Positions 20,558-61,606 of a stretch of DNA of 64,000 nt are shown in pieces. The position numbers and the translations under genes are program-made. The notes beneath the pieces are model-generated. The model was given only the letters and a program-made list of their open reading frames with translations. It made no database searches and was not told the origin of the DNA. The stretch comes from Sinohyriopsis cumingii (Eukaryota > Mollusca > Bivalvia > Unionida > Unionidae), in NCBI GenBank assembly GCA_028554795.2, contig CM068839.1, positions 18,180,043 through 18,244,042 of the forward strand, written 5' to 3'. Within the stretch, counting starts at the first letter, position 1; the number at the start of each line of letters is the position of its first letter.

Positions 20558-20764
20558 GTGATAAGGATTCACGTGTCAAATCAACACCAGAGCCCTATTT
20601 AGATGTTGTAACCAGCACCAACGAGTTCGATTCAAGACAATATGAGTCGGATGGAAGTACCAACTATGCACGACCAGAGTATGATAATGCTCGTATCGAT
20701 GACGTTAAATCCCAATCTGATATTGGTTCCAACAATACAATAGAGGAGTTATTTACAGAGAAAG
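20558..20764 (+). CDS. Acidic cassette exon, copy 1 (type A)
   Basis: 207 bp, 69 codons, after acceptor CCACAAACAG and before GTTGTA, phase 1-1. The product is hydrophilic, rich in Ser, Thr, Asp, Glu and Asn, and has no cysteine and no hydrophobic core, so it is probably a disordered linker or repeat. The N-terminal third (SRVKSTPEPYLDVV) and the C-terminal EELFTE are constant among copies; the middle varies. Residues 59-61 (NNT) form an N-glycosylation sequon. The donor matches AAG|GT but has T at +3 and is weak. If it is not used, the frame reads through ten more codons (GCI.NIIL) to TAA at about 20790, making this a last exon. Coding status is inferred from frame preservation in twelve copies, absence of indels, and uneven substitution. 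Confidence 0.68.
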
Positions 20765-23143
20765 GTTGTATCGCAAATATCATTTTATAACAAAATATTG
20801 CTTTTTGTTTGCTAACCAAAGTGGTTGTCCATCATAAAGATGTTAGCTTTAATGTCAGTGGTTGGCGGCACTTTTAAATCTTTGAGCAGGAATCATGATA
20901 GGAATTCATGTTCTATGGTCATGCAACAGTCTTAGCATAAAACTTGAATTGGCACTCAAAACCCATATATGAACACTCACAGTTTTTAGCACACGGTACT
21001 GTTGAGAAACATTTATTTAGAAGTACATAAAAGAAGAAAATGCATACATTTTCTTACAGCTAAAGCCCGTGTCTATCTGACAGATAACCCTATGTATTTT
21101 GGACATCCAATTTGATATCAATCGGACAGCTAAATTTACGTCTATCAGATTTGTAACGAATGAAATACGTTGGGAAACGTTAGTATGATTGTAGGTTTTG
21201 TGCTTAGAAAGCTATGTGACTAAGTGGTCATATTTTGTCGCAGAATTTTATTATAAAAAATATAATTCTTAGTCGCTTGCATTAGATATGTAATGCGATC
21301 CAAATAAAATCAAAGATCACATCACATGCTATAAGGGCTAAGTAGAACGTTGTTTTCATTTGTACATTGTATCATAGCTATATCATTAGCCCTATTGTGA
21401 AAACATCAAATACATTTGAAATGGAAATATTATACCCTAATTTAGGATATTAATTGCTTCATAAAGTTAAACCTGTTTGCACATATCATAGATCAAAATT
21501 AAAATCGGCAACCCTATTGAACTTCTCTATGAATAAATTAGTATATTTCAAATTTTAACAGACAAAGTCATGTCCATGATACATATCTGAACCAGGATTG
21601 TGCTTGCTGCAGAAAGACAGCCCCGATACAACACAACTCGTTAATACGCGATCAAACATCGCTTGTAACAATCAGACTATTCATCAAGATGATGAAATAA
21701 TCGCTTTCAAACTACCACTAAAGAAAATTACAATGATTGATAATGGTCAATATTAAAGGATATTGCGTGACCATCGATGACAATTAAAATCATCTAATTA
21801 GAAACTTTTAAAGTAATCATTTATTTGTACACATTAGTTTGCCCTTTTACAGACCAGGAGACCATCATGGTTACGTTTTAAAACAAACAATGTCATTTGC
21901 GCACCAGGTAATGGTAACGGTTGTTTACTTCCTGTGATTCGTTATTTTGACTACCCGAGCTGTCCTTTCTTCGCAGTAAGTCGCATTCCTCTGCAAAATA
22001 TAGCTTCAATGATGTTTTCAACACGGAAAGAAAGTGTTGTTTATTGCTTGACGTATCTATGAAAGTTCGCGCTTCTTATAATATTACATATTTGTTAAAG
22101 CAAATCCAGTGTCACGAAAATAATTTGCGACGTATAAACTAAAACCTAAGATGTCAAGGACCATTTATAGGACACGTAGTTTTTTTTTAAATCATGTACG
22201 AGAATATGTTGGAGAATTCCGAGGTAAGGGGATGCCTCGAAATCACGATAGAGAAATGGTAAAGATTTGAACAGGTTTCTTGTGTAGTATCAATTTAATT
22301 GAGTTCTTCTTGCAATAATTATACATTTGCATACCGCGCCGTTCTAACATGCATTGAGACTTGTTGAAATCTCTTCAAGTTGCGCACCGAACTGAACGTT
22401 AGTATTTCATAACACTAACAAACACAATGGATTCATATTCCATTCTTGTGCTTAGCATTACCTGTACCTAATAAGCATTTATTGTTTTGTTATTAATTTC
22501 TTAGATTCATTTCTATAAGTATTTGAAATCGTAAGACCTTAACTTAACATTTACATTATTCATAGAGTCACAAAGCTATAAAATCGATTAGACACTATGC
22601 ATGAATGAACTTTATTTCTACGGTTAGTTATGCAGTGTGTAATCGTATTTCAAGGTTCCTAATTAATTTATGTGAAAGGTCAACGCTACTCCAATTGGCA
22701 TGAATTTAATTGCCAAAACAGAAATAAATGAAACAAATGACTGTTGATCTTTAGAGTTTACTTGAAATTATTGTATTATTAGTACTGATTGCCTACTGAT
22801 TGAACTGTCCTTGTTGATATGCTGTTTAAGCATGTTTGGTACTTGATTTCAACGGTTCTAGACTACATGAATCTTTAAAATGGAATCTTAATTCCTAATA
22901 AAAGATCGATGTAAGGGAAACTCATTCAGAATGGCATGACTTTAATCACCGACATACAACAAGGGGGAAAATGACTCTTAAAATTTACATGTTACCTTAT
23001 TTAGTTTTACAATTAAAAGACGCTATAAAGGGCTCTATAAATTGGTAATTCTTCATAGTAGCAGAATCAGACACATTTCGCTTTAGACCAATTGGTACTG
23101 TTATTTACATATTAGGAACTACAATAAGGTATGGAAAACTAAA

Positions 23144-23383
23144 CTACTTATGCAGAAAGCTGGTTCTATTATATTTAAATTTATAATAGCCTGCTTCATT
23201 CATCCAATGTTTTTGGACAAATATATGTTCTTTGTGAGCGTGTTTGTCCCTCTTCATGTGAAGAGATAATCTTCCGAGCGAATCGTGTAAATGGTTCCTT
23301 TCCACGTATGCAGCTAAAATATTCGCAACCACTGCTTCTCGATCGTAACGTTTAAATCTAATACAGTAAAGACCAAATGTCAT
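23144..23383 (-). other. Low-divergence antisense-ORF segment, repeated in every unit
   Basis: Each unit ends with a segment that reads as a 79-codon frame on the - strand. Intact copies are at 23144, 30393, 34020, 37647, 41274, 44904, 48525 and 56696-56941; broken copies are at about 26790-27012 (in-frame TAG) and 17675-17857 (frameshift). The copy at 56696 is about 98% identical to this one, whereas sequence just upstream of it differs by about 10%. I do not recognise the peptide. Differences between copies are as often replacements as silent, and one copy is truncated, so I do not call a protein-coding gene. A gene-conversion tract or a conserved non-coding element fits better. Confidence 0.4.
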
Positions 23384-24176
23384 ATTTCAGTTACATTTAA
23401 AAGCGTTTTGATAAAAAGCATATTACTTTCCTTAGAAAAAATTGCATTCAAGGTCCTCCATACACCGTTGATAGGAAGATAAAATTGGATTGATTCGCTC
23501 TTTAGTTTAATGTGCTGCGTTGTCTGAAAATAACCTGACATTCGAATAAACGGGATTTAAAGTAGACTAGGTCGCGTTAAAAGAAATTGGCATTTAATAA
23601 ATTGAAGCAGCTTTTGTAAAACATTTTCTGAAGAAGTTCAATCATTACTGGACTAAGGTGCAGTACATTTGATATCCTTTTATGTTTAACAAAAAGTACT
23701 TTAACCACTCTTTACAGATTTTTAAGTCAGATTTTTCAACGGAGTCGAATGTTGTGTACAGTATTAAAACTCGAAACTATAATTCTCCAAAACCGTGCAC
23801 TGATAATTTAGTGAAATGTTTGGTGAAAGCTAATCATTTCCTCACTTTTATTTTAACTGTTTTAGAACTGGATTGCAACTTAAAATATAATGATAAATAT
23901 CAGATTGCAATTTGATAAGGGCATTTTGTTAAACATAATGCATAGATTTTCATCCCTATTACCGAATGTAGCTGTGAAACTTTGACACCGTTTCCAACAT
24001 GCATTCTAATCCAATGAGATTTAAATAGATTACAGTGGTAAAGTTATTCCTTCAGAAAAGATAGTTATTTTATGTTGTTGAATAAAACAGTTACGAAGCT
24101 GGCTGATGGCCAATCGGCAAGACTTGAAATAACTTAAAGAAATATTCTCAGTTTTAATCTTTTAATCCACAAACAG

Positions 24177-24383
24177 GTGATAAGGATTCACGTGTCAAAT
24201 CAACACCAGAGCCCTATTTTGATGTTGTAACCAGCACCAACGAGTTCGATTCAAGACAATATGAGTCGGATGGAAGTACCAGTTATGAACGCCCAGAGTA
24301 TGGTAATGCCCGTATTGATGACGTCAAATCCCAATCTGATATTGGTTCCAACAATACAACAGAGGAGTTATTTACAGAGAAAG
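24177..24383 (+). CDS. Acidic cassette exon, copy 2 (type B)
   Basis: Same boundaries, length and phase as copy 1. Relative to copy 1 it has L15F, N36S, A38E, D43G and I62T plus a few silent changes in the stretch encoding NARIDDV. I62T creates a second overlapping sequon (N60-T-T). It defines the B flavour, with Ser36-Tyr-Glu38 and Gly43. The first residues up to Tyr14 are unchanged at protein level. Confidence 0.66.
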
Positions 24384-27300
24384 GTTGTATCGGAAATATC
24401 ATTTTATAACAAAATATTGCTTTTTGTTTGCTAACCAAAGTGGTTGTCCATCATAAAGATGTTAGCTTTAATGTTAGTGGTTGGCGGCACTTTTTTTTTT
24501 TTAAATCTTTGAGCAGGAATCATGATAGGAATTCATGTTCTATGGTCATGCAACAGTCTTAGCATAAAACTTGAATTGGCACTCAAAACCCATATATGAA
24601 CACTCACAGTTTTTAGCACACGGTACTGTTGAGAAACATTTATTTAGAAGTACATAAAAGAAGAAAATGCATACATTTTCTTACAGCTAAAGCCCGTGTC
24701 TATCTGACAGATAACCCTATGTATTTTGGACATCCAATTTGATATCAATCGGACAGCTAAATTTACGTCTATCAGATTTGTAACGAATGAAATACGTTGG
24801 GAAACGTTAGTATGATTGTAGGTTTTGTGCTTAGAAAGCTATGTGACTAAGTGGTCATATTTTGTCGCAGAATTTTATTATAAAAAATATAATTCTTAGT
24901 CGCTTGCATTAGATATGTAATGCGATCCAAATAAAATCAAAGATCACATCACATGCTATAAGGGCTAAGTAGAACGTTGTTTTCATTTGTACATTGTATC
25001 ATAGCTATATCATTAGCCCTATTGTGAAAACATCAAATACATTTGAAATGGAAATATTATACCCTAATTTAGGATATTAATTGCTTCATAAAGTTAAACC
25101 TGTTTGCACATATCATAGATCAAAATTAAAATCGGCAACCCTATTGAACTTCTCTATGAATAAATTAGTATATTTCAAATTTTAACAGACAAAGTCATGT
25201 CCATGATACATATCTGAACCAGGATTGTGCTTGCTGCAGAAAGACAGCCCCGATACAACACAACTCGTTAATACGCGATCAAACATCGCTTGTAACAATC
25301 AGACTATTCATCAAGATGATGAAATAATCGCTTTCAAACTACCACTAAAGAAAATTACAATGATTGATAATGGTCAATATTAAAGGATATTGCGTGACCA
25401 TCGATGACAATTAAAATCATCTAATTAGAAACTTTTAAAGTAATCATTTATTTGTACACATTAGTTTGCCCTTTTACAGACCAGGAGACCATCATGGTTA
25501 CGTTTTAAAACAAACAATGTCATTTGCGCACCAGGTAATGGTAACGGTTGTTTACTTCCTGTGATTCGTTATTTTGACTACCCGAGCTGTCCTTTCTTCG
25601 CAGTAAGTCGCATTCCTCTGCAAAATATAGCTTCAATGATGTTTTCAACACGGAAAGAAAGTGTTGTTTATTGCTTGACGTATCTATGAAAGTTCGCGCT
25701 TCTTATAATATTACATATTTGTTAAAGCAAATCCAGTGTCACGAAAATAATTTGCGACGTATAAACTAAAACCTAAGATGTCAAGGACCATTTATAGGAC
25801 ACATAGTCTTTTTTAAAATCATGTACGAGAATATGTTGGAGAATTCCGAGGTAAGGGGATGCCTCGAAATCACGATAGAAAAATGGTAAAGATTTGAACA
25901 GGTTTCTTGTGTAGTATCAATTTAATTGAGTTCTTCTTGCAATAATTATACATTTGCATACCGCGCCGTTCTAACATGCATTGAGACTTGTTGAAATCTC
26001 TTCAAGTTGCGCACCGAACTGAACGTTAGTATTTCATAACACTAACAAACACAATGGATTCATATTCCATTCTTGTGCTTAGCATTACCTGTACCTAATA
26101 AGAATTTATTGTTTTGTTATTAATTTCTTAGGTTCATTTCTATAAGTATTTGAAATCGTAAGACCTTAACTTAACATTTACATTATTCATAGAGTCACAA
26201 AGCTATAAAATCGATTAGACACTATGCATGAATGAACTTTATTTCTACGGTTAGTTATGCAGTGTGTAATCGTATTTCAAGGTTCCTAATTAATTTATGT
26301 GAAAGGTCAACGCTACTCCAATTGGCGTGAATTTAATTGCCAAAACAGAAATAAATGAAACAAATGACTGTTGATCTTTAGAGTTTACTTGAAATTATTG
26401 TATTATTAATACTGATTGCCTACTGATTGAACTGTCTTTGTTTATATGCTGTTTAAGCATGTTTGGTACTTGATTTCAACGGTTCTAGACTACATGAATC
26501 TTTAAAATAGGAATCTTAATTGCTAATAAAAGATCGATGTAAGGGAAACTCATTCAGAATGGCATAATTTTAATCACCGACATACAACAAAGGGGAAAAT
26601 GAGTCTTAAAATTTACATGTTACCTTATTTAGTTTTACAATTAAAAGACTCTATAAAGGGCTCTATAAATTGGTAATTCTTCACAGTAGCAGAATCAGAC
26701 ACATTTCGCTTTAGACCAATTGGTACTTTTATTTACATATTAAGGAACTACAATAAGGTATGGAAAACTAAACTACTTATGCAGAAAGCTGGTTCTATTA
26801 GATTTTAATTTATAATAGCATGCTTCATTCATCCAATGTTTTTGGACAAATATATGTTCTTTGTGAGCGTGTTTGTCCCTCTTCATGTGAAGAGATAATC
26901 TTCCGAGCTAATCGTGTAAATGGTTCCTTTCCACGTATGCAGCTAAAATATTTGCAACCACTGCCTCTCGATCGTAACGTCTAAATCTAATACAATAAAG
27001 ACGCAATGTCATATTTCAGTTATATTTAAAAGCGTTTTGATAGAAAGCATAATATTTTCCTTAGAAAATATTGCATTCAAGATCCTCCATACACCGTTGA
27101 TAGGAAGATAAAATTGGATTGATTCGCTCTTTAGTTTAATGTGCTGCGTTGTCTGAAAATAACCTGACATTCGAATAAACGGGATTTAAAGTAGACTAGG
27201 TCGCGTTAAAAGAAATTGGCATTTTAATAAATTGAAGCAGCTTTTGTAAAACATTTTCTGAAGAAGTTCAGTCATTACTGGACTAAGGTGCAGTACAGTT

Positions 27301-27806
27301 GATATCCTTGTATATTTAATAAAAAGTACTTTAACCACTCTTTACAGATTTTTAAGTCAGATTTTTCAACGGAGTCGAATGTCGTGTACAATTTTAAAAC
27401 TTAAAAATATAATTCTCCAAAACCGTGCGCTGATAATTTAGTGAAATGTTTGGTGAAAGCTAATCATTGTCTCACGTTTCATTTTAACTGTTTTAGAACT
27501 GGATTGCAACTTAAAATATAATGATAAATATCAGATTGCAATGTGATAAGGGCATTTTGTTAAACATAATGCATAGATTTTCATCCGATTACCGAATGTA
27601 GCTGTGAAACATCGACACCGTTTCCAACATTCATTCTAATCCAATGAGATTTAAATAGATTACAGTAGTAAAGTTATTCCTTCAGAAAAGATAGTTATTT
27701 TATGTTGTTGAATAAAATAGTTACGAAGTTGGCTGACGACCAATTGGCCCGACTTGAAATAAATTAAAGAAATATTCTCAGTTTTAATCTTTTAATCCAC
27801 AAACAG

Positions 27807-28013
27807 GTGATAAGGATTCACGTGTCAAATCAACACCAGAGCCCTATTTAGATCTTGTAACCAGCACCAACGAGTTCGATTCAAGACAATATGAGTCGGA
27901 TGGAAGTACCAACTATGCACGACCAGAGTATGATAATGCTCGTATCGATCACGTTAAATCCCAATCTGATATTGGTTCCAACAATACAATAGAGGAGTTA
28001 TTTACAGAGAAAG
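27807..28013 (+). CDS. Acidic cassette exon, copy 3 (type A)
   Basis: A-flavour middle (Asn36, Ala38, Asp43) with two replacements against copy 1: V17L and D49H. Leu17 is otherwise found only in the type B copies 4-6, so this exon shares its 5' half with the next units and its 3' half with copy 1. The intron downstream, from about 28900, also matches the following B units. This is consistent with unequal exchange or conversion inside the exon or its flanks. Confidence 0.66.
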
Positions 28014-31000
28014 GTTGTATCGCAAATATCATTTTATAACAAAATATTGCTTTTTGTTTGCTAACCAAAGTGGTTGTCCATCATAAAGATGTTAGCTTTA
28101 ATGTCAGTGGTTGGCGGCACTTTTAAATCTTTGAGCAGGAATCATGATAGGAATTCATGTTCTATGGTCATGCAACAGTCTTAGCATAAAACTTGAATTG
28201 GCACTCAAAACCCATATATGAACACTCACAGTTTTTAGCACACGGTACTGTTGAGAAACATTTATTTAGAAGTACATAAAAGAAGAAAATGCATACATTT
28301 TCTTACAGCTAAAGCCCGTGTCTATCTGACAGATAACCCTATGTATTTTGGACATCCAATTTGATATCAATCGGACAGCTAAATTTACGTCTATCAGATT
28401 TGTAACGAATGAAATACGTTGGGAAACGTTAGTATGATTGTAGGTTTTGTGCTTAGAAAGCTATGTGACTAAGTGGTCATATTTTGTCGCAGAATTTTAT
28501 TATAAAAAATATAATTCTTAGTCGCTTGCATTAGATATGTAATGCGATCCAAATAAAATCAAAGATCACATCACATGCTATAAGGGCTAAGTAGAACGTT
28601 GTTTTCATTTGTACATTGTATCATAGCTATATCATTAGCCCTATTGTGAAAACATCAAATACATTTGAAATGGAAATATTATACCCTAATTTAGGATATT
28701 AATTGCTTCATAAAGTTAAACCTGTTTGCACATATCATAGATCAAAATTAAAATCGGCAACCCTATTGAACTTCTCTATGAATAAATTAGTATATTTCAA
28801 ATTTTAACAGACAAAGTCATGTCCATGATACATATCTGAACCAGGATTGTGCTTGCTGCAGAAAGACAGCCCCGATACAACACAACTCGTTAATACGCGA
28901 TCAAACATCGCTTGTAACAATCAGAATATTCATCAAGATGATGAAATAATCGCTTTCAATCTACCACTAAAGAAAATTACAATGATTGATAATGGTCAAT
29001 ATTAAAGGATATTGCGTGACCATCGATGACAATTAAAATCATCTAATTAGAAACTTTTAAAGTAATCATTTATTTGTACACATTAGTTTGCCCTTTTACA
29101 GACCAGGAGACCATCATGGTTACGTTTTAAAACAAACAATGTCATTTGCGCACCAGGTAATGGTAACGGTTGTTTACTTCCTGTGATTCGTTATTTTGAC
29201 TACCCGAGCTGTCCTTTCTTCGCAGTAAGTCGCATTCCTCTGCAAAATATAGCTTCAATGATGTTTTCAACACGGAAAGAAAGTGTTGTTTATTGCTTGA
29301 CGTATCTATGAAAGTTCGCGCTTCTTATAATATTACATATTTGTTAAAGCAAATCCAGTGTCACGAAAATAATTTGCGACGTATAAACTAAAACCTAAGA
29401 TGTCAAGGACCATTTATAGGACACGTAGTTTTTTTTTAAATCATGTACGAGAATATGTTGGAGAATTCCGAGGTAAGGGGATGCCTCGAAATCACGATAG
29501 AAAAATGGTAAAGATTTGAACAGGTTTCTTGTGTAGTATCAATTTAATTGAGTTCTTCTTGCAATAATTATACATTTGCATACCGCGCCGTTCTAACATG
29601 CATTGAGACTTGTTAAAATCTCTTCAAGTTGCGCACCGAACTGAACGTTAGTATTTCATAACACTAACAAACACTATGGATTCATATTCCATTCTTGTGC
29701 TTAGCATTACCTGTACCTAATAAACATTTATTGTTTTGTTATTAATTTCTTAGATTCATTTCTATAAGTATTTGAAATCGTAAGACCTTAACTTAACATT
29801 TACATTATTCATAGAGTCACAAAGCTATAAAATCGATTAGACACTATGCATGAATGAACTTTATTTCTACGGTTAGTTATGCAGTGTGTAATCGTATTTC
29901 AAGGTTCCTAATTAATTTATGTGAAAGGTCAACGCTACTCCAATTGGCATGAATTCAATTGCCAAAACAGAAATAAATGAAACAAATGACTGTTGATCTT
30001 TAGAGTTTACTTGAAATTATTGTATTATTAGTACTGATTGCCTACTGATTGAACTGTCCTTGTTGATATGCTGTTTAAGCATGTTTGGTACTTGATTTCA
30101 ACGGTTCTAGACTACATGAATCTTTAAAATGGAATCTTAATTCCTAATAAAAGATCGATGTAAGGGAAACTCATTCAGAATGGCATGACTTTAATCACCG
30201 ACATACAACAAGGGGGAAAATGAGTCTTAAAATTTACATGTTACCTTATTTAGTTTTACAATTAAAAGACGCTATAAAGGGCTCTATAAATTGGTAATTC
30301 TTCATAGTAGCAGAATCAGACACATTTCGCTTTAGACCAATTGGTACTGTTATTTACATATTAGGAACTACAATAAGGTATGGAAAACTAAACTACTTAT
30401 GCAGAAAGCTGGTTCTATTATATTTAAATTTATAATAGCCTGCTTCATTCATCCAATGTTTTTGGACAAATATATGTTCTTTGTGAGCGTGTTTGTCCCT
30501 CTTCATGTGAAGAGATAATCTTCCGAGCGAATCGTGTAAATGGTTCCTTTCCACGTATGCAGCTAAAATATTCGCAACCACTGCTTCTCGATCGTAACGT
30601 TTAAATCTAATATAGTAAAGACCAAATGTCATATTTCAGTTACATTTAAAAGCGTTTTGATAAAAAGCATATTACTTTCCTTAGAAAATATTGCATTCAA
30701 GGTCCTCCATACACCGTTGATAGGAAGATAAAATTGGATTGATTTGCTCTTTAGTTTAATGTACTGCAGTTGTCTGAAAATAACCTGACATTCGAATAAA
30801 CGGGATTTAAAGTAGACTAGGTCGCGTTAAAAGAAATTGGCATTTAATAAATTGAAGCAGCTATTGTAAAACATTTTCTGAAGAAGTTCAATCATTACTG
30901 GACTAAGGTGCAGTACATTTGATATCCTTTTATGTTTAACAAAAAGTACTTTAACCACTCTTTACAGATTTTTAAGTCAGATTTTTCAACGGAGTCGAAT

Positions 31001-31426: not shown

Positions 31427-31633
31427 GTGATAAGGATTCACGTGTCAAATCAACACCAGAGCCCTATTTAGATCTTGTAACCAGCACCAACGAGTTCGAT
31501 TCAAGACAATATGAGTCGGATGGAAGTACCAGTTATGAACGCCCAGAGTATGGTAATGCTCGTATCGATGACGTTAAATCCCAATCTGATATTGGTTCCA
31601 ACAATACAACAGAGGAGTTATTTACAGAGAAAG
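31427..31633 (+). CDS. Acidic cassette exon, copy 4 (type B)
   Basis: B-flavour exon with Leu15-Asp-Leu17, as in copy 3, and Ser36, Glu38, Gly43, Thr62. It encodes exactly the same 69 residues as copies 5 and 6. It is the first of the run spaced at exactly 3627 bp. Confidence 0.66.
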
Positions 31634-35053: not shown

Positions 35054-35260
35054 GTGATAAGGATTCACGTGTCAAATCAACACCAGAGCCCTATTTAGAT
35101 CTTGTAACCAGCACCAACGAGTTCGATTCAAGACAATATGAGTCGGATGGAAGTACCAGTTATGAACGCCCAGAGTATGGTAATGCTCGTATCGATGACG
35201 TTAAATCCCAATCTGATATTGGTTCCAACAATACAACAGAGGAGTTATTTACAGAGAAAG
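35054..35260 (+). CDS. Acidic cassette exon, copy 5 (type B)
   Basis: Identical in protein to copies 4 and 6. The unit that begins here differs from the copy 4 unit at only a handful of positions, for example CAAACTACC for CAATCTACC near 36210, TATTGAAGG for TATTAAAGG near 36257 and CCTACGATG for CCTAAGATG near 36650. Confidence 0.66.
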
Positions 35261-38680: not shown

Positions 38681-38887
38681 GTGATAAGGATTCACGTGTC
38701 AAATCAACACCAGAGCCCTATTTAGATCTTGTAACCAGCACCAACGAGTTCGATTCAAGACAATATGAGTCGGATGGAAGTACCAGTTATGAACGCCCAG
38801 AGTATGGTAATGCTCGTATCGATGACGTTAAATCCCAATCTGATATTGGTTCCAACAATACAACAGAGGAGTTATTTACAGAGAAAG
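38681..38887 (+). CDS. Acidic cassette exon, copy 6 (type B)
   Basis: Identical to copy 5. Over the whole 3627-bp unit I noticed a single difference from the copy 5 unit (GTAGAGACC at about 41497 against GTAAAGACC at about 37870). This is either a very recent duplication or an assembly duplication. Confidence 0.66.
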
Positions 38888-42307: not shown

Positions 42308-42514
42308 GTGATAAGGATTCACGTGTCAAATCAACACCAGAGCCCTATTTTGATGTTGTAACCAGCACCAACGAGTTCGATTCAAGACAATATGAGTCGG
42401 ATGGAAGTACCAGTTATGAACGCCCAGAGTATGGTAATGCTCGTATCGATGACGTTAAATCCCAATCTGATATTGGTTCCAACAATACAACAGAGGAGTT
42501 ATTTACAGAGAAAG
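42308..42514 (+). CDS. Acidic cassette exon, copy 7 (type B)
   Basis: B-flavour exon with Phe15-Asp-Val17, so its protein is identical to copy 2 rather than to the neighbouring copies 4-6. The preceding intron also carries copy 2-like features (AGTATTAAAAC near 41890, ACACCGTTTCC near 42117). It closes the homogeneous B run. Confidence 0.66.
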
Positions 42515-45938: not shown

Positions 45939-46145
45939 GTGATAAGGATTCACGTGTCAAATCAACACCAGAGCCCTATTTAGATGTTGTAACCAGCACC
46001 AACGAGTTCGATTCAAGACAATATGAGTCGGATGGAAGTACCAACTATGCACGACCAGAGTATGATAAAACTCGTATCGATGACGTTAAATCCCAATCTG
46101 ATATTGGTTCCAACAATACAACAGAGGAGTTATTTACAGAGAAAG
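45939..46145 (+). CDS. Acidic cassette exon, copy 8 (type A)
   Basis: A-flavour exon with Asn36, Ala38 and Asp43, and private replacements N44K and A45T through one 3-base cluster (GATAAAACT). Thr62 is as in the B copies. Its upstream intron matches that of copies 1 and 3 (ACTTAAAAATATAATTC near 45531). Confidence 0.66.
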
Positions 46146-49560: not shown

Positions 49561-49767
49561 GTGATAAGGATTCACGTGTCAAAACAACACCAGAGCCCTA
49601 TTTAGATGTTGTAACCAGCACCAACGAGTTCGATTCAAGACAATATGAGTCGGCTGGAAGAACCAGCTATGCACGCCCAGAGTATGATAATGCTCGTATC
49701 GATGACGTTAAATCCCAATCTGACATTGGTTCCAACAATACAACAGAAGAGTTATTTACAGAGAAAT
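49561..49767 (+). CDS. Acidic cassette exon, copy 9, altered donor
   Basis: Replacements against copy 1 are S9T, D32A, S34R, N36S and I62T. The last exonic base is T instead of G (AAAT|GTTGTA), which weakens an already poor donor and would change the junction residue from Gly/Ala to Ser or Cys. About 20 bp downstream the unit is cut and fused to a different intron (breakpoint near 49785). The exon may be skipped, or read to a stop shortly after the fusion (GGTTGA near 49785). Confidence 0.5.
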
Positions 49768-49785
49768 GTTGTATCGGAAATATCG

Positions 49786-50833: not shown

Positions 50834-51034
50834 CCGAATGTATCTTGAACGATCTGAAGAAGTTTCTATACAAAGATGAAACGGTCAAGACAGTGTACCG
50901 AAGTGGAGAAAAAATAAAGATTTATTGTCCGCTAGATGGTGACGATGAATATTTATATGACCATGGAACTGACGAAACATCCGAATTAACCTGCAGTAAT
51001 GGACGTTGGATCGGAGATATACCTAAATGCGTCG
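50834..51034 (+). CDS. CCP (sushi) exon, copy 2
   Basis: 201 bp, phase 1-1, with acceptor TTATTTCAG and donor G|GTATGT. Cysteines at 3, 32, 54 and 66 and Trp59 are kept. Distinguishing residues are Tyr31 before the second Cys (IYC), LYDHGTDE in the middle, Ile60 and PKCVG at the end. It is closest to copy 4, its partner in the block duplication. Confidence 0.87.
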
Positions 51035-51512
51035 GTATGTTTCAGTTTTTATACTGCTTGGAAGCTTAACACCTCTTTGCAACATGAGACCAACATTTAT
51101 ATATCTGCATTCAATAAAATAAAAGTACATTAATTTAAAAATGTTTTCCACTCTTTCCAGGTTTTAAGTCAGATATTTTCACGGAGTCGAAGTTTGGGTC
51201 ATAATTTTAGAACTTGAAACTACAATACTTCCAACACTGATAATTAAGTAAAATGTTTGGTCGAAGCTTGTCGTTGTCTCACGTGTTTATTTTAAATGTC
51301 TTAGAACGTGATTTCAACTCAAAAGAAAATGATACTTATGACAGACAGTAATGTGATACAATCATTTGTAAAACATAATGTACAGATTTTACACCTTTTA
51401 CAACATTGACGGAATTTAGCTATGAAACATTGACACCGTTTCCAACATTTCTGCCAGACTCGCAAAATCCCAAGGAAATATTCTAAATTTCAAACTTTTA
51501 ATCCACATACAG
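51035..51512 (+). other. Short intron between CCP2 and acidic 10 (deleted form)
   Basis: Only 478 bp, against 2.7 kb between CCP4 and acidic 12. The sequence jumps from the ACAACATGAGACC phrase near 51093 straight to AACATTTATATATCTGC, which in the paralogue lie at about 58733 and 60970. About 2.2 kb has therefore been deleted here, including the place of the LINE. Confidence 0.8.
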
Positions 51513-51719
51513 ATAATGCGGATTCACGTGTCAAATCAACACCAAAACCCTATTTAGATGTTGTATCCAACACCAACGAGTTCGATTCAACACAATATGT
51601 GTCGGCTGGAAGTACAAGCTATGCACTCTCGGATTCTGCCAATGCTCGTGTCAATTACGGTAAATCCCAAAATGACAATGGTTACAACAATACAACAGAG
51701 GAGTTATTTACAGACTAAG
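51513..51719 (+). CDS. Acidic exon, copy 10, with in-frame stop
   Basis: Acceptor CCACATACAG; 207 bp aligned without indels to the other copies. The exon begins (G)AT AAT GCG instead of GGT GAT AAG, and the penultimate full codon is followed by TAA (51716-51718) where other copies have AAA. The protein would end ...EELFTD. About 24 residues differ from copy 1, with only about two silent codon changes. The stop may make this a genuine last exon, with the putative donor TAAG|GTTGTA left unused, or show that the copy has decayed. Absence of other damage favours the former. Confidence 0.6.
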
Positions 51720-52745
51720 GTTGTATAGGAAACACCATTTTAGGAAAAAAACGTTACCTTGTGTTTGCTAACCAGAGCAGTTGTCTATGAAAAGGATATT
51801 AGCTTTGATGATAATGGTGTAGGGCCACATTTTTAAATCTTTGAGCAGGAATCATGCTTGGAATTCATGTTCTATTGTCATGCAACAATCTTAGCACAAA
51901 ACTTGAACCCAAACATGAAAACGCACAGCTTTTGGCACAAGTAACTGTTGGAAAATATTTATTTAGACGAACAACAAAAAAAAAAGATAGTGATAGTTAT
52001 ATCTATATTGTATTTATTCTGTGTGCTTGAATTTTATTCATGATTGCAGTTTGTAGTGTATGCTAATGGTCATTTGTAAATAACCTACTTAAATAGATAA
52101 TTCTTGTCAATGTATTTCCTATTTTCAGATAATATTTGTAGTCAAGATTACAAGGCTTTTGACATTATAAAAGTCTAGAAGCGAAATTGTATAACTCACA
52201 TCCTGGTCATCACTTTGTGTCATTAGTTTTTATATAAGGATACGAAAAACAAAAATTATTAAGGTGAATTTTAATGTCAGTCTAATTGCATCAATTTTAG
52301 TTGTCTTCAGAGACATTTTGCGAGGAATCATTTATTTGAATTATTCATTGGAATGTGAAAGTGTCCGTTTACTTATCGGATTAAATGACTACTTACGGAT
52401 TATTGAGGATTCATTCAAAGAAATTCTAGAACACACCATTGCTGTACGTTAAGACTGTGGGTGCATTAGCACATTGAAGATTGAAAGTCATTCGGAACAT
52501 TTCTTTTTTGGACTTGTATAAAAACCATAATAACATTGAACATGACATACTGTACTTCAGTCTCACAAAGTAATTTGTTATAAATGTTTACAAAATGCGT
52601 ATACACGATCCCGATTAAATTCTAAAATAAGCGCACAAGATCCAATCATATTCATCTATTGAAGTGAATACTATGACTTGTTATTACACATATAATAGCT
52701 AAAATCTAGTCAATTAGGGTATGACATGTAGGATATTTTTCTCAG
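51720..52745 (+). other. Sequence between acidic 10 and CCP3
   Basis: Homologous to 61607-62630 at high identity. If acidic 10 is a last exon, the proximal part is 3' UTR and flank; otherwise it is intron. The 62-codon frame at 52264-52452 is broken by a 1-base deletion in the paralogue near 62299, so it is not supported. It ends with acceptor TTTTTCTCAG. Confidence 0.6.
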
Positions 52746-52946
52746 CCGAATGTATCTTGAACGATCTGAAGAAGTTTCTATACAAAGATAAAATGGTGAA
52801 GACGGTGTACCAAACTGGAGAGAAAATAAAGATTTCTTGTCCACTGGATGGTGTCGATGAATATGTATATGACTATGGAACTGAAGAAACATCCGAGTTA
52901 ACCTGCAATAATGGACGTTGGGTTGGAGATATGCCAAAATGCATCG
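52746..52946 (+). CDS. CCP (sushi) exon, copy 3
   Basis: 201 bp, phase 1-1, donor G|GTAGGT. All four cysteines and Trp59 are kept. It belongs to the second CCP flavour: Lys16-Met17, Gln23-Thr24 (YQTGEK), Ser31 (ISC), DMPKCIG. It has a private Val37 (GVDEY). It differs from copy 5 at this residue only, as far as I can see. The antisense 128-codon frame over this exon (52710-53096) is a shadow. Confidence 0.87.
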
Positions 52947-54153
52947 GTAGGTTTCAATATTTGTACTTCTCTGAAGTTTACCACCTCTTTTCAACATGAG
53001 ACCGAAAATATGTTGTTGTAACGTACGACTATAAAGATCAAGGAAGTCCCGAATATTTTTGTAGCTTTGGTGTCCTTCAGATCTCTTTCGCTGCACGTTT
53101 ACAAGTTATAACTGATATCCAGTTTTTCAAATAAACCTTTCGTTGAAAATATGGCATATTTCAGCTACATTTAAAGCGTTTTGATAAAAGGCATAATATT
53201 TTCGTTAGAAAATATTGCATTCAAGGCCGTGAAGACACCGTTGATAAGAAGATAAAATTGATTGATTATCTCTTTAGTTTAATGTACTGCAGTTGACTGA
53301 AAATGAACTGTTAAACGCTTGAGTAACGTCTGGTTTTTCGTTGGCATGTCAATCTTATGTCATCATAAATAAATCGATTGTCACAGATGTGATATTCTGT
53401 TCTACGCTATTTGAAAGTATAAATCGGTTTTTTAAGATGGTGTTTGGAATGTGAACTGACGGTAGACATTTGTTATCTGAACTCATCCTGAAACAGGGTA
53501 ACATTCCAAACTGACATTCGAACAGACGGGAATTAAAGTAGACTAGGTCTCATTAAAAGAAATTGGCATTTTAAAAAATTGAAGCAGCTGTTGTAAAGCA
53601 TTTTCAGAAGAAGTTCAATCATTACTGGACTAAACTGTAGTAAAATTTATATCTTTGTATATTTAATAAAAAGTATTTTAACCACTCTTTACACATTTTT
53701 AAGTCAGATTTTTTAACGGAGTCGAATGTTGTGTACAATTGTAAAACTTAATACTGCAATTCTCCGAAAACGTGCGCAGATAATTAAGTCAAATGTTTGG
53801 TCAAAGCTAACCACTGCCTCACGTTTATTTTTACTGTTTTAGAACGGGATTTCAACTTAAAATATAATGATAAATATCAGATTGCAATGTGAAAGGGTCA
53901 TTTTATTAAACATAATGCACAGTTTTTCACCCCTATTACGGAATGTAGATGTGAAACTACGACACCGTTTCCAGCATTCATTCTAATCCAATGCGATTTA
54001 AATAGACTACAATGGTAAAGTTATTTCTTCAGAAAAGATAGTTATTTTATGTTGAGAAATAAAACAGTTACGAAGTTGGCTGATGACCAATCTGCCGGAT
54101 TTGAACAAAACGAACGAAATATTCACAGTTTTAATCTTTTAATCCACAAACAG
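52947..54153 (+). other. Intron between CCP3 and acidic 11
   Basis: 1.2 kb. From about 53150 it is homologous to the start of the 3.6-kb units, with an extra block at about 53310-53510 that the amplified units lack. It retains the ancestral link between a CCP exon and the acidic exon. No exon recognised. Confidence 0.7.
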
Positions 54154-54360
54154 GTGATAAGGATTCACGTGTCAAATCAACCCCAGAGCCTTATTTAGAT
54201 GTTGTTACCAACACCAACGAGTTAGATTCAACAAAATATCTGACGGCTGAAAGTACCAGCTATACACGTGCAGAGTCTGATAATGGTCGTGTCGATGCCG
54301 TTAAATCCCAACCTGACAGTGGTCCCAGCAATACAACAGAGGAGTTATTTACAGACAAAG
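54154..54360 (+). CDS. Acidic cassette exon, copy 11 (diverged)
   Basis: 207 bp, no indels, no stop, same acceptor (CCACAAACAG) and AAAG|GTTGTA end. Against copy 1 I count 21 replaced residues and 5 silent changes. None of the replacements falls in residues 1-19, where three silent changes lie; the replacements are at 20-68. Sequon N60-T-T is kept although Asn59 is Ser. Read-through would give GCIGNTIL and a TAA, as in the other copies. Confidence 0.66.
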
Positions 54361-57300
54361 GTTGTATCGGAAACACCATTTTATAACAAAACATTACTTT
54401 CTGTTTTGCTAACCAAAGCGATTGTCTATCATAAAGATCTTAGTTTTATTGTTAATGGTTGGCCGCATTTTTAAATCTTTGAACAGGAATCATGCTCGGA
54501 ATTCATGTTCTATGGTCATGCAACAGTCCTAGCACAAAACTTGAATTGGTACTCAAAACCCATATATGAAAACTCACAGTTTTTAGCACACGGTACTGTT
54601 GAGAAACATTTATTTAGAAGTACATAAAATAAGAAAATGCATACATGTTCATACAGCTAAACCCCGTGTCTATCTGAAAGGTAACCCTATGTCGTTTGGA
54701 TATCCAATTTGATATCAATCGGACAGGTAATGTTCCGTCTATCAGAACTGTAACGAATGAAATACGTTGGGAAATGTTAGCATGATCTTATGTGTTGTGC
54801 TTAGAAAGCTATGTGACTAAGCGGCCATATTTTGTCTCATAATTTTATTACAAAAAAATCATAAGACAAAGTCGCTTGCATCAGATATGTAATGCGATCC
54901 AAATAAAATCAAAGATCGCCTCACATGCTATAACAGCTAAGTAGAATGTTGTTTTCATTTGTACATTGTATAATAGCTATAGCCCTTTTTTGAAAACATC
55001 AAATACATTTGAAATGGAAATATTATACCCTAATCTAGTATACTAAGAGCTTCATAAAGTTAAACCTGTTTGCAGATATCATAAGATCAAAATTATAATC
55101 GGCAATCCTATTGAAATTCACCTTGATTAAATAAGTACATTTCAAATTTTAACGGGCGAAGTCATATCCATGATTCATATCTGAACCATGCTTGTGCTTG
55201 CTGCAAAAAGACAGCCTCGATACAACAAAACTCGTTAATACGCGATCAAACTTCGCTTGTAACAATGAGACTATTCATCAAGATGATGAAATAATCGGTT
55301 TCAAACTATCACTAAAGAAAATTACAATGAATAATAATGGTCACTATTAAAAGATATTGCGTGACCATTGATGACAATTAAAATGATCTAATTAGAAACT
55401 TTTAAAGTAATCATTTATTTGCATACATTAGTTTGCCCTTTCACAAACAATGTCATTTGTGCGCCAGGTAATGGTAAAGGTAATTAACTTCCTGTGTTTC
55501 GTTAGTTTGACTACACGAGCTGTCCTTTCTTCGTAGTAAGTCGCATTCCTCTGCAAAATATATCTTCGATGATGTTTTCAACAGGAAAAGAAAGTGTTGT
55601 TTATTGCGTGAAGTAGCTATGAATGTTCACGCTTTCTTATAATATTACATATTTGTAAAAGCATATCCAGTGTCACAAAAGTAATTTGCGACGCATAAAC
55701 TAAAACCTAAGATGTGAAAGACCACTTACAAGACACGTTGTGTTTTAATCATGTACGAGAATATGTTGGAGAATTACGAGGTAAGAGGATTCCTCGAAAT
55801 CACAGTAAAAAAATTGTAAATGTTTGAACAGGATTCTCATGTAGCATCAATTTAATTGAGTTCTTCTTGCAATACTTATACATTTGTATATCGCGCCTTT
55901 CTAACATTCATTGTGACTTGTTAAAATCTCTTCAAGTTACACACCGAACTGGGAGTTAATGATTCATAGCACTAACAAAAACTATGGGTTTTATTCCATT
56001 TTTGTGCTTAGCATTACCTGTACCTAATAAGCATTTATTGTTCTGTTATTAATTTCTTACATTCATTTCTATAACTATTTGAAATCGTGAGACACTAACT
56101 TAACATTTACATTATTCATAGAGTCGCAAAGCTATAAAATCGATCAGACACTATGCATGAATGAACTTTATTTCTACGGTTAGTTATGAAGTGTGTAATC
56201 GCGTTTCAAGGTTCCTAATTAATTTATGCGAAAGGTCAGCGCTAGTCTGATTGGCATGAATTTAATTGCCAAAACGGAAATAAATCAAACAAATGTTGAT
56301 CTTTAGAGTTTACTTGAAATTATTTTATTATAAATAATGATTGCCTCCTGATTGAACTGTCTTTGTTTATGTGCTGTTCATGTATGGTTGATACTTGATT
56401 TCAAACGTTCTGGACTACATGAATCTTTAAAATATAAATCTTAATTCCTAATAAAAGATCGATGAAAGGGAAGCTCATTCAGAATGGCATGACTTTAATC
56501 ACCGACCCACACTATGGGGGAAAATGACTCTTACATTTTACATGTTAGCTTATTTAGTTTTACAATTAAAAGCCGCTTTAATGGCTCTATAAATTGGTAA
56601 TTCTTCATAGTAGCTGAATGTGACACATTTCGCTTTAGACCAATTGGTACTTTTATTTACATATTAGGAACTACAATAAGGTATGGAAAACTAAACTACT
56701 TATGCAGAAAGCTGGTTCTCTTATATTTAAATTTATAATAGCCTGCTTCATTCATCCAATGTTTTTGGACAAATATATGTTCTTTGTGAGCGTGTTTGTC
56801 CCTCTTCATGTGAAGAGATAATCTTCCGAGCGAATCGTGTAAATGGTTCCTTTCCACGTATGCAGCTAAAATATTCGCAACCGCTGCCTCTCGATCGTAA
56901 CGTCTGAATCTAATACAATAAAGACCCAAAGGTGAATGCAACTGGCTCTTTTTTAGTATCGTTTATACTTAAAAACTTAATATGCCTGAGAATTAGTACG
57001 TTTACCTATCAAACAAAGGTCATTGATATTCAACTATCAAATGATACATGTCTATAATTCATCATTTTTTGGCTACTTTTATAACAATCAATGACTCCAG
57101 GTTTTCTCAGCACAGCAAAAATCAGACATTACCAGTAAACTGTATCTTCGCAGCCTATATCAGATTTATATGCATTAATGAGTGGAGTTTACGATCCAGT
57201 GACAATTTATATGTGATAATTATCAGGATATACACTACGATACGTTTTTGTTTGCATGTAATTATATTAGTTGAATTTCCAAGATTTTAGGAACTACCAT

Positions 57301-58475
57301 TTGCTTTAAAGAATAAATCTTTAAATGCCTATGTACCCCATACTCTCCCCCCCCCCCCCAACAAAAAACCCCAACACATTGAATTAGATGTAGTGGTTAA
57401 ATCCACTCTTTGAAAGACACCAGTGCTTTTAATAAGGCACCATCTGCATACAATTAAGTTTTAAATCTCTTTTTTAAGTTCATAGAAGAAGATATCATGT
57501 GAAACCGACCACAAGAAATAAGGCATATTGTATGGCAAGTCCTCATTACAATTGCATCTTGTTAATCCTAACATCCTAAAGCTAAAATGTTAAAACAACC
57601 AAATACCCATTGAAATATGTATACTCTTCTACGTTCTGAACCAAGTCTGTTTTATTTTATTTGTGTGCGTGTGTATTTGTGTGTGTGAATGGGATACAGG
57701 TCAACAAAACTTGTAATGAAATATACGAGCATACAAGTAGAAACTGAATGTTTAAGTACTGCACATCCCAGATGGCACTGATAATGTCATTGATGACGAA
57801 TATGTGATTCCTTCTTAGTATTTGCATTGTCCTTCCTGTCGATGAAAGTTTCTTTTGGCATTGTTTTGTTACTGTACCTCATCCTATAAATGTTTAATTG
57901 CATTCCGAGTGTAATTGTATACTACTGTACCCTGTTGACCCCGTTTATGTCGAAAGTTCTAGAGCCCCTCACTCTCACTCCTGCTTCAATCATTATGTCT
58001 TAGACATACCCTTCTTAAAGAGTTTCACAATCAAGATTAAATATGTGTCTGTGAGATAGGCGTCCATCAAATGTAAGCGCAAATGAGCATTTCCTCTGTT
58101 TTGTAGCAAAAGAAGGCCCTAATGCAAGAATTTAACACAATATGAAAGTCAGTACACTATTTTCCATATACCACTTTATCTAGATAATATTCAATTACCA
58201 GAAAACGGCAACATCGCGTCTATGTGAATGAATGTATTCCAGGCTAGAAAAAAGGACTCTAATCATACTGAATATGACATACGGTATTTGATTCTCACAA
58301 TGAGATTTATTATAAACGTATAAAAAATACATATACACGGTCTTAATTGATTAACACATTATGCACATACCATCTAATCCTATTCATATGTTGACGTGAA
58401 TACTTTAACTTGTTATTGCACATTATAGCTGAAATCTATTTAACTAGAGTCTGATATGAAAGCATTTTATTTCAG
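54361..58475 (+). other. Long intron of the ancestral unit, acidic 11 to CCP4
   Basis: 54361-56940 aligns with the post-exon part of each 3.6-kb unit at about 90% by eye. 56941-58475 aligns with 17860-19350. This is the only place in the window where both parts are contiguous, so it shows the arrangement before the 3.6-kb amplicon formed. It contains the antisense-ORF segment (56696-56941), a C-tract near 57345-57359 and a GT-rich patch near 57660-57690. No exon recognised. Confidence 0.75.
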
Positions 58476-58676
58476 CCGAATGTATCTTGAATGATCTGAA
58501 GAAGTTTCTATACAAAGATGAAACGGTCAAGACAGTGTACCGAAGTGGAGAAAAAATAAAGATTTATTGTCCACTGGATGATGACGATGAATATGGATAT
58601 GACCATGGAACTGACGAAACATCCGAGTTAACCTGCAATAATGGACGTTGGGTTGGAGATATACCTAAATGTGTCG
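58476..58676 (+). CDS. CCP (sushi) exon, copy 4
   Basis: 201 bp, phase 1-1, acceptor TTATTTCAG, donor G|GTATGT. Same flavour as copy 2 (Tyr31, YDHGTDE, PKCVG), with Asp36 and Gly41 (DDDDEYGYD) and Asn55-Asn56 and Val60 as in copies 1, 3 and 5. All structural cysteines and Trp59 are kept. Confidence 0.87.
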
Positions 58677-58999
58677 GTATGTTTCAGTTTTTATACTGCT
58701 TGGAAGGTTAACACCTATTTACAACATGAGACCAAACACCTGTTGTTGTAACGTACGACTAGAAAGATCAAGAAAGTTCCTAGTATCTTTGTAGTTTGGA
58801 TGTACTTCAGATCTCGTTCGCTGCATATTTACGTAACATAAAGTGTACCCAGTAATTCATATAAACATTTCGTTGACGATCTTCCAATTAAGTGCTTAGT
58901 CTATATGCAGGCATAGTCGCACTGTGCTGAACTATGTAAATATGTAAAGGAAGGCTCTTTGTGCAAGTTAAAAACAGGATAAAATAATACACAGTGTGC

Positions 59000-59845
59000 A
59001 TGTTAAGACATGGGCCATGCTAAGCCGATGTGGACCTGAAAGATATCAACGGGAGGCGCTGTAATGGCTGTCGCTGGCAAGAAGTTCCAAAGATGAATGC
59101 CTGTGGAGAAGAGGGAGTTCTTATATGCGTCCACGAAACACTATTATGCCCTATATATGCTGGCATGGCCTCTGGTTGATGCTTTTACGTGGATCAAGTG
59201 CCTTGTTGTTAATATTTCAGGTAGTTGGTTAATCATTTTGGTGCATCGTGATGACCTTGTTCTGATGACGTCGGGTTCTCACGTCTTCTCACTGAAGGTC
59301 CTTAAGCATGGTTGTGACGCTACTGGTTTGTCAATAGTCGGTGTGACATAATCTTACTGCCCGCGTTTGGACTAATTCTAGTTTGGCTGCATTGGGTTTG
59401 GATTGTGGATCCCATAATGTAGAAGAGTTTTCGAGCTGTGGGCGAAAGAGCGTCATGTAGCAGCAGGCCTTGGTGTGTGTAGGGCAGGATGAAAGGTTTC
59501 TTGGAAGAATAGATGTCATCTGGTTTGCCTTTTTGGTTACGGATCCATGCGCGAATTAAATGATAGTTTGCTGTACAAGATTACACCCAGGTACTTGGCT
59601 CTGTTGGTCTCAAAAGCATTGGCTCGTGGATAGAATAGGATATGTTAATGACTTTTCGCTTGTTGGTTATGTGTATGTGTTCGCACTTGGACGGGTTAAA
59701 ATCCATTTGCCATTATCTCTCCAATTTCTGTAACTTGTTCAGGTCTTCTTTTAGTAAAATGCATCTTGTTGGGAATGAATCACTATTTAAAGTAGACAAT
59801 CGTCGACGAAGAGTCTATCCGTGAAATAAAAATGTGGAATAATGT
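59000..59845 (-). mobile_element. 5'-truncated, broken LINE (reverse-transcriptase C-terminal part)
   Basis: Reading from high to low coordinates, fragments in shifted frames give FVDDCLL (about 59800, the Asp-Asp active-site region), KLEEDLNKLQKW-like and FNPSK spacing, AKYLGVIL (about 59590-59615), LFRPQLENSSTLWDP (about 59400-59450) and ELVQTRAVR. A later stretch around WNFLPA lies near 59065-59085. This order is that of the palm, thumb and C-terminal part of non-LTR retrotransposon reverse transcriptases of the Jockey/CR1-like kind. Stops and frameshifts show it is dead; everything upstream of the FxDD motif is missing. The overlapping + strand frame at 59097-59351 is a shadow. Confidence 0.85.
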
Positions 59846-59881
59846 TTGAGGAAGAACTACTTTATTTGCTTTATATTTACA
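59834..59881 (+). repeat. 48-bp inverted repeat, left arm
   Basis: Perfect reverse complement of 60189-60236. It starts GTGGAATAATGTTTGAGG and ends TTATATTTACA, and abuts the 5' end of the LINE fragment. Confidence 0.95.
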
Positions 59882-60188
59882 TTATTATGACATCTCTAAG
59901 CTAAATTATATAGCATTTCGATAAAAAGCATGATATTAATAATACCCTTAGAAAATATTGCAACAAAAGTCCGCCAGAAACCGTTCATAAGAATCAAAAT
60001 ATAATTACTTGGCTTGCTCCTTACTTTAATATAATGAAGTTATAAGGTTGTCTGAAAATGACCTGTTGCACGCTTGAGTAACGTTATAGCGAAGCGGGTT
60101 GTTAAATGAAAACTTCAGCTAATTTACATGTTTGCAATGCAAAGTGTCATCTACGCTTGGTAACTGGAAGACAGTAGGTTGAAAGATG

Positions 60189-60236
60189 TGTAAATATAAA
60201 GCAAATAAAGTAGTTCTTCCTCAAACATTATTCCAC
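60189..60236 (-). repeat. 48-bp inverted repeat, right arm
   Basis: Perfect reverse complement of 59834-59881 across a 307-bp spacer made of unit-type intron sequence. Identity stops abruptly on both sides. Confidence 0.95.
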
Positions 60237-60369
60237 GTTATAGTAGTGGATGGTAAAATTGTTGGAAGATTGCTCCGCAATAAATTTCACATCTTCTGAG
60301 ATATATTTAATGCACCATTTACTCAGTCTGTACTTTTTCTAGCTCTTTTTCGTTTCTTTATGTTTGCAT

Positions 60370-60501
60370 TTTGCTACTACATAAAGGACAATAGTATGAT
60401 GGGTCTGGATCTTCGCAGATGTGATGTGTTGCAAATTTGCTACTACATAAAGGACAATAGTATGATGGGTCTGGATCTTCGCAGATGTGATGTGTTGCAA
60501 A
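60370..60501 (+). repeat. 66-bp perfect tandem duplication
   Basis: Two adjacent copies of a 66-bp block beginning TTTGCTACTACATAAAGG and ending GTGTTGCAAA, with no difference seen. The 79-codon frame across it exists only because 66 is a multiple of three; nothing else suggests coding. Confidence 0.95.
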
Positions 60502-60808
60502 TTTTATACGAAAGAGAAATTTGTGGGACGCGTTTTTTTAATTTAGGAATCTCTTTGGTCGCATATTTGCAAGCTTTGTCGTTGGGAAGTCGATCTTAAG
60601 GCACCATGTCTGAAACGACTTTTACATATGTGATTGTTAATATGGTATGTGAGTGCATGTTGGAATGTGAGCTTACAGTAGACACTTATTTGAATTCCTC
60701 GTGAAACAGGAAAACGTTCAAAACTAACATTCTGATAAATGAGAATTAAAGTCAACTAGTTAGCGTTCGAAACAACTGGCATGTTTGCCTCAAACTATCT
60801 TTACTAGG

Positions 60809-60809
<1 letters not shown>

Positions 60810-60839
<30 letters not shown>
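60810..60839. repeat. (TA)n microsatellite
   Basis: An uninterrupted TA run of about 15 units in the CCP4-acidic 12 intron. Confidence 0.95.
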
Positions 60840-60844
<5 letters not shown>

Positions 60845-61399
60845 TAGATGAAATAAGCAATTTGTAATGAAAATGATCAACTTGCAATGCTTTATTTAGA
60901 GAAGTAAATTGAAGTATCTATTGAAAAACAATTTCTACAGAAGAACAATCATTATAGAAACTAAAATGTAGTAAACATTTATATATCTGCATTCAATAAA
61001 TAAAAGTACATTAACTTAAAAAGGTGTTCCACTCTTTCCAGGTTTTAAGTCAGATATTTTAACGGAGTCGAAGTTTGGGTCATAATTTTACAACTTGAAA
61101 CTACAATACTTCCAACACAGGCTTTAATAATTAAGTAAAATGTTTGGTCGAAGCTTGCCGTTGTCTCACGTGTTTATTTTAAATGTTTTTGAACGTGATT
61201 TCAACTCAAACGAAAATGATACATAAAACAGACGGCAATGTGATACAATCATTTGTAAAACATAATGCACAGATTTCACACCTTTTACAACATTGACTGA
61301 ATTTAGCTATGAAACGTTAATACCGTTTCCAACATTTCTGCCAGACTCGCAAAATCCCAAGGAAATATTCTAAATTTCAAACTTTTAATCCACATACAG

Positions 61400-61606
61400 A
61401 TAATGCGGATTCACGTGTCAAATCAACACCAAAACCCTATTTAGATGTTGTATCCAACATCAACGAGTTCGATTCAACACAATATGTGTCGGCTGGAAGT
61501 ACAAGCTATGCACTCTCGGATTCTGCCAATGCTCGTGTCAATTACGGTAAATCCCAAAATGACAATGGTTACAACAATACAACAGAGGAGTTATTTACAG
61601 ACTAAG
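61400..61606 (+). CDS. Acidic exon, copy 12, with in-frame stop
   Basis: Near-identical paralogue of copy 10: same acceptor CCACATACAG, same start DNADSRV, and the same TAA (61603-61605) after EELFTD. One visible replacement (T21I, CCAACATCAAC). The stop predates the block duplication and has been retained in both members without further damage. Confidence 0.6.

Follow-up and report, generated by a model that had tools for sequence, protein, structure and literature searches.

A tandem array of a probable, loosely constrained acidic spacer exon in the bivalve Sinohyriopsis cumingii

A 64,000-nucleotide stretch of the Sinohyriopsis cumingii genome (assembly GCA_028554795.2, contig CM068839.1, positions 18,180,043 to 18,244,042; hereafter the window) contains 12 copies of a 207-bp exon of 69 residues each, the first starting at position 20558 and the last ending at 61606. 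On balance, this element is probably a loosely constrained, translated spacer exon in a tandem array, of which the frame and the splice sites are kept, with little constraint on residue identity. The original prediction, based on pairwise counts, described it as an acidic cassette with a constant head and a hypervariable core under diversifying selection. Here, all copies, their paralogues and the matched introns were compared.

A search of the 2.9-Gb genome scored 18 candidates and gave 16 matches, composed of 13 tandem copies and three diverged single-copy paralogues, x1, x2 and x3, which lie upstream of copy 1, at distances of 55 to 235 kb, on the 100-Mb chromosome that also bears the window. 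The tandem copies are numbered by position and, in the window, all lie on the forward strand: copy 1 (20558..20764, phase 1-1), copy 2 (24177..24383), copy 3 (27807..28013), copy 4 (31427..31633), copy 5 (35054..35260), copy 6 (38681..38887), copy 7 (42308..42514), copy 8 (45939..46145), copy 9 (49561..49767), copy 10 (51513..51719), copy 11 (54154..54360) and copy 12 (61400..61606). The first base of copy 13 is the 40th past the window end. All 16 exons have phase 1-1, are preceded by AG and are followed by the donor GTTGTAT, which the search pattern itself required. The reading frame is free of stops in 14 of them; the exceptions are copies 10 and 12, in both of which an in-frame TAA forms the final codon ahead of the donor. 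In copy 9 the exon-donor junction reads AAT/GT in place of AAG/GT and, about 20 bases further on, a copy of the block upstream of CCP1 begins. For the comparisons below, each exon was divided into a head (residues 1-19), a core of 44 codons and an end of 6 codons.

That the exon really is translated, as had been proposed, is very probable, though on grounds other than those first given, namely the open frame, the in-frame indels and the kept splice sites. Exon divergence of the paralogues x1-x3 from copy 1 amounts to 25-29% of sites, and their exon length changes of -9, +12 and -3 bp are all multiples of three (3/3), as against 15/47 indels in the flanking introns (counted pairwise against copy 1, with some shared). 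When copy 1 was evolved neutrally along the upstream-intron tree, x1-x3 all stayed open in 0/2000 runs, and all 12 rows besides copies 10 and 12 were likewise stop-free in 0/2000. These results bear directly on the possibility that the copies are decaying, untranslated duplicates and that their ratio of replacement to silent rates (omega) lies near 1 by plain neutral drift. Such decay would account for the whole-exon omega of 0.91 reported below, for the altered donor of copy 9 and for the in-frame TAA that copies 10 and 12 share, but it is highly improbable in view of the simulations, of the in-frame indels, of splice sites intact in 16/16 exons and of the fact that even the most diverged copies, x1-x3, are still open. 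A terminal exon or cytoplasmic tail, with a stop after copy 1, was also considered and ruled out, since the paralogues preserve both donor and frame and each of the four genes continues with CCP exons.

Constraint on the encoded residues was assessed with our own GY94-type implementation (F3x4) on the exon tree, using 14 rows, copies 5 and 6 being dropped as identical to copy 4. The main groups recur in a tree of the upstream introns, which departs from the exon tree within copies 1-9. Under the one-ratio model (M0), omega is 0.91 and a value of 1 is not rejected (log-likelihood, lnL, -989.27 against -989.37 at omega 1; twice the difference, 2dlnL, 0.2). The tandem copies alone (11 rows, copies 1 to 13 less 5 and 6) gave an omega of 1.08, no different from 1. 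The site-model tests (M1a/M2a, M7/M8 and M8a/M8) are equally non-significant, with 2dlnL of 1.04, 0.90 and 1.16 on the 14 rows and values of 0.57-1.20 for two further sequence sets. A core under general diversifying selection, for which M7 against M8 had been named as a check, is thus not borne out. By region, omega amounts to 0.81 for the head, 1.00 for the core and 0.57 for the end (2dlnL 2.5, 2 degrees of freedom), and the two-region comparison of head and core gives a 2dlnL of 1.9, so the picture of a purified head next to a positively selected core finds no significant difference behind it. When the region test was simulated with an omega of 0.5 for head and end, it detected a core value of 2 in 19/20 runs and one of 1.5 in 13/20; this estimate is liberal, 4/20 null runs at omega 1 exceeding the one-sided 5% threshold, and covers the region test, not the site models. 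The same method applied to the CCP1 exons (8 rows) yielded an omega of 0.43, with omega 1 rejected (2dlnL 11.4), and therefore sees constraint where it is present.

The pairwise counts that suggested selection are themselves reproduced. Between copies 1 and 11, the head carries no replacement and three silent changes, and the rest 21 replacements and two silent changes; by codon, this is 0 replaced and 3 silent of 19 in the head, 20 and 2 of 44 in the core, and 1 and 0 of 6 in the end. Core divergence in this pair is 23/132 sites, or 17%, close to the predicted value of about 16%. Copies 1 and 10 show, as claimed, 24 replaced and 2 silent codons among 68 compared. The head, on the other hand, is not constant. 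Five of the 24 replacements of copy 10 fall within it (5/19 residues), the head of copy 12 is also changed, and the paralogues have 10/19 (x1), 7/19 (x2) and 8/18 (x3) head residues replaced. Its seeming constancy stems from the recent duplication that produced copies 1-9 and from the head that copy 11 has in common with them. A constant head with a hypervariable core therefore describes one set of pairs and does not extend to the family. Since omega is about 1, head and core omegas do not differ, and copies 10 and 12 have changed heads, as do the paralogues, the predicted pattern of selection does not hold for the family; a contrast in selection between head and core is not seen across it and could only apply, post hoc, to the stem of copies 11 and 13 and to other deep stems.

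Nor does replacement generally run ahead of intron divergence. Flanking introns were compared in 21 copy pairs, a subset of all possible pairs, and the downstream flank of copy 9, where another block sets in, was excluded. Exon divergence lies below that of the intron in 14/21 pairs, including all 8 that involve a paralogue, and above it in 7/21, namely three pairs of copies 1-9 with copies 11 or 13 and four pairs within copies 1-9. The core exceeds the intron at p<0.05 in 5/21 pairs, three of them between copies 1-9 and copies 11 or 13 and two within the array. For copies 1 and 11, the first 245 aligned downstream bases, excluding the 10 next to the donor, differ at 22 sites (9.0%), where a sample that we could not locate had given about 7%; both flanks together differ at 60/599 sites (10.0%), which the whole exon (27/207) does not exceed (p 0.24). 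The relation is reversed for copies 1 and 10, with 33/207 sites in the exon against 127/473 (27%) in the intron (p 0.002), the core standing at 24/132 (18%). The exon was also examined as a hotspot within the array, and this was discarded: 14/207 exon columns vary against 112/3429 outside, but 800 columns upstream are equally variable (50/800).

In this probable reading, the exon would encode an acidic, Ser/Thr-rich, extended and probably disordered spacer between the first and second CCP modules, CCP1 and CCP2, of an extracellular, complement-like protein. The segment has a net charge of -5 to -8 and 15-21 Ser/Thr residues, and AlphaFold predicts it as unstructured (nine window sequences; mean predicted local distance difference test score, pLDDT, 59; predicted template modelling score, pTM, 0.16). 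Amplification within one of four paralogous genes would have proceeded through the tandem copying of a 3.6-kb intron-exon unit and through duplication of blocks carrying CCP1 plus the acidic exon. Selection would preserve the frame, the splice sites and freedom from stops (14/16 copies) while residues drift at an omega of about 0.9, and amplification would alter the number of spacers on offer. Conservation of charge as a selected property was considered and set aside, drift simulations matching the observed constancy in 8-14% of runs (P 0.08-0.14).

Several points weigh against this loosely constrained spacer. A low pLDDT argues only weakly for disorder when the model was built, as here, from nine close sequences, and the acidity itself may not be selected. 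In the pair of copies 1 and 11, the core, with its 23/132 sites, does exceed the two intron flanks (Fisher p 0.022). Moreover, on the stems of the three copy groups taken together (A, B and C), core omega reaches 9.4 against a background of 0.59 (2dlnL 9.41 versus omega 1), a value attained upward in 0/200 null simulations, as compared with 0.34 for head plus end (2dlnL 1.53). Stems A and C alone, those of copies 1-9 and of copies 11 and 13, give a core omega of 6.3 (2dlnL 5.07). Finally, a BUSTED-like mixture test over branches and sites gives a 2dlnL of 4.30 for the whole exon, 4.39 for the core and 5.13 for head plus end; on CCP1 it gives 0.79.

These values raise an episodic explanation, by which the core was driven and the head held as the copy groups first split in the gene, the groups being later homogenised and conserved. 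It would fit the excess of core over intron divergence between copies 1 and 11, the contrast between core and head plus end on the A+B+C stems, the head omega of 0.01 on the stem of copies 11 and 13 (2dlnL 5.06) and the core omega of 0.36 inside copies 1-9 (2dlnL 4.49). Core omega on single stems is 33 for copies 10 and 12 (2dlnL 5.49 against one ratio) and 3.9 for copies 11 and 13 (2dlnL 2.76), and the whole exon on the A+B+C stems has an omega of 2.7 (2dlnL 3.89). However, the A+B+C set was chosen post hoc, after nine branch tests (three branch sets by three regions), and the core omega falls to 2.4 (2dlnL 3.20, non-significant) when the branch joining copy 10 to the paralogues is added, then to 1.9 (2dlnL 2.14) with the paralogue stem too. 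Head plus end on these stems is itself not distinct from 1, the mixture test is no stronger for the core than elsewhere, and the introns of copies 1 and 10 changed more than the exon. Some core codons also differ at two bases, and such codons can inflate branch tests of this kind. A true head/core contrast on deep stems is therefore possible, with tests that are post hoc and a core result that depends on the branch set, and we regard the episodic explanation as unlikely. Less likely again is its broader form, in which amplification of the exon within a complement-like gene with lectin exons yields a set of acidic spacers, either interchangeable or concatenated, with a core driven and a head held at the first split of the copy groups and the groups then homogenised by tandem duplication.

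How the copies would be used is a separate matter. The array is tandem and phase-compatible, with AG and GT in 16/16 exons, as mutually exclusive exon arrays require, and two of its copies, 10 and 12, hold a stop. The copies could be alternatives, one or a chosen few being spliced in as an isoform choice, a scheme that is compatible with the loosely constrained spacer. The usual donor consensus is GTRAGT, from which GTTGTAT departs; this departing donor is kept in 16/16 acidic exons, whereas CCP1 donors are of the form GTAxxT in 8/8 (the CCP1 search pattern required GTA). Exon choice is favoured by this kept donor, by the common phase 1-1 of every copy and by the stops of copies 10 and 12, which would terminate the protein were these exons always included. 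On the other hand, copies 1-8 are nearly identical, so that selecting among them would change little, and the three single-copy paralogues share the same donor. Overall, exon choice appears rather doubtful; the unusual kept donor and the two stops suggest, no more, that inclusion may be regulated or incomplete.

Any two of copies 1-8 differ at 0-12 exon sites, copies 5 and 6 being identical to copy 4 over the exon. The region 19756-49784 is made of eight near-identical 3.62-kb units of two intermingled sequence types (copies 1, 3 and 8 versus 2 and 4-7). Copies 4, 5 and 6 show 1-5 differences outside the exon and 0 inside, and this near-identity may reflect recent amplification or an assembly effect. 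Further on, at 51092-54114 and 60974-64000, lie the two versions (95.9% identity) of a duplicated 3-kb block that comprises one CCP1 exon and two acidic exons and carries the TAA seen in copies 10 and 12. Copies 10 and 12 differ from each other at 1/207 exon sites, yet at 31/593 intron sites.

The acidic exon sits between the first two CCP/Sushi-like modules and is amplified in one of four family members. At all four paralogous loci, a CCP/Sushi-like exon (phase 1-1) precedes it and further CCP-like exons come after it. In the window gene, the order is LDL-receptor class A (LDLa), CCP1, copies 1-9, CCP1, copy 10, CCP1, copy 11, CCP1, copy 12, CCP1 and copy 13, followed by more CCP-like exons and then, 37 kb beyond the window end, by a C-type lectin exon. 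The LDLa exon, on the forward strand upstream of the first CCP1 (17231..17340, edges approximate), was located by motif scan and passes Pfam Ldl_recept_a (45.3 bits, cut-off 24.1). The five CCP1 exons, also on the forward strand, lie at 19351..19551 (phase 1-1; Pfam Sushi 17 bits), 50834..51034 (14.2 bits), 52746..52946 (20.1 bits), 58476..58676 and 62631..62831. Sushi scores of CCP1 to CCP4 range from 14.0 to 20.1, all under the cut-off of 20.7. Other CCP exons clear it, two of them further downstream in the window gene (44.9 and 45.3 bits) and another in x1 (26.4). The predicted structure of CCP1 has a mean pLDDT of 67, and a Foldseek search of the PDB with this model gave no match at E<=0.001. 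Of the lectin exons, the first scores above its Pfam cut-off (26.7 bits against 22.6), Pfam did not match a presumed second, and a similar lectin exon in x1 was recognised by eye only. LDLa is present in x1, x2 and the window gene and was not found in the x3 stretch scanned. From their order, strand, phase and collinearity, the LDLa, CCP, acidic and lectin exons are probably joined in one transcript.

The four paralogous CCP genes span about 330 kb (chromosome 17960001-18294000, parts examined). LDLa exons occur in three of the four, and the two covered far enough have C-type lectin exons, which suggests an LDLa-CCP-lectin gene cluster. A downstream serine protease was also sought: GDSGG/AAHC-type motifs number 0 in x1 (20 kb), in x2 (20 kb), on both strands of 18135001-18284000 and on the forward strand to 18294000, and one could lie farther away. 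Elsewhere in the window, positions 1139-4139 hold a minisatellite (44-bp unit, 68 copies, 92% matches). Broken open frames at about 11200-15700 include a stretch that, by its motif, may resemble the DNA polymerase B of Polinton/Maverick elements; Pfam gave no match over the cut-off for the four frames tried. Rfam gave 0 matches at gathering score.

Collectively, the apparent strong diversifying selection drawn from a pairwise count largely dissolves with all copies, paralogues and matched introns. The interest lies in the array; as a case of selection it is ordinary unless the stem signal is confirmed. Were that branch signal true, it would mean that selection acts on disordered spacers encoded by an amplified exon array in a putative recognition protein. 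Disordered linkers that join extracellular modules and drift rapidly keep their frame, are loose in their residues and have an omega near 1. The acidic exon resembles them in its kept frame, its loose residues and its omega near 1, and differs in that one gene carries 13 copies of it. Bivalve proteins that have a C-type lectin domain and additional sushi domains have been described with a putative immune role (PMC10140915). They likewise unite C-type lectin and sushi; the term LDL occurs 0 times there, and the relevant passages of that source contain no spacer exon. Complement C6/C7 combine LDLa and CCP with MACPF in the passages concerned (PMC11312191), and share the first two modules with the present gene, which has a C-type lectin exon downstream instead; a pattern for the MACPF signature was not found in the stretches scanned. 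With tandem exon duplication and exon choice (PMC9013439), the present gene shares many head-to-tail, phase-compatible copies of one exon. It departs from that system in the near-identity of copies 1-8, in the stops of two copies and in a repeated exon that encodes a spacer, not a folded domain.

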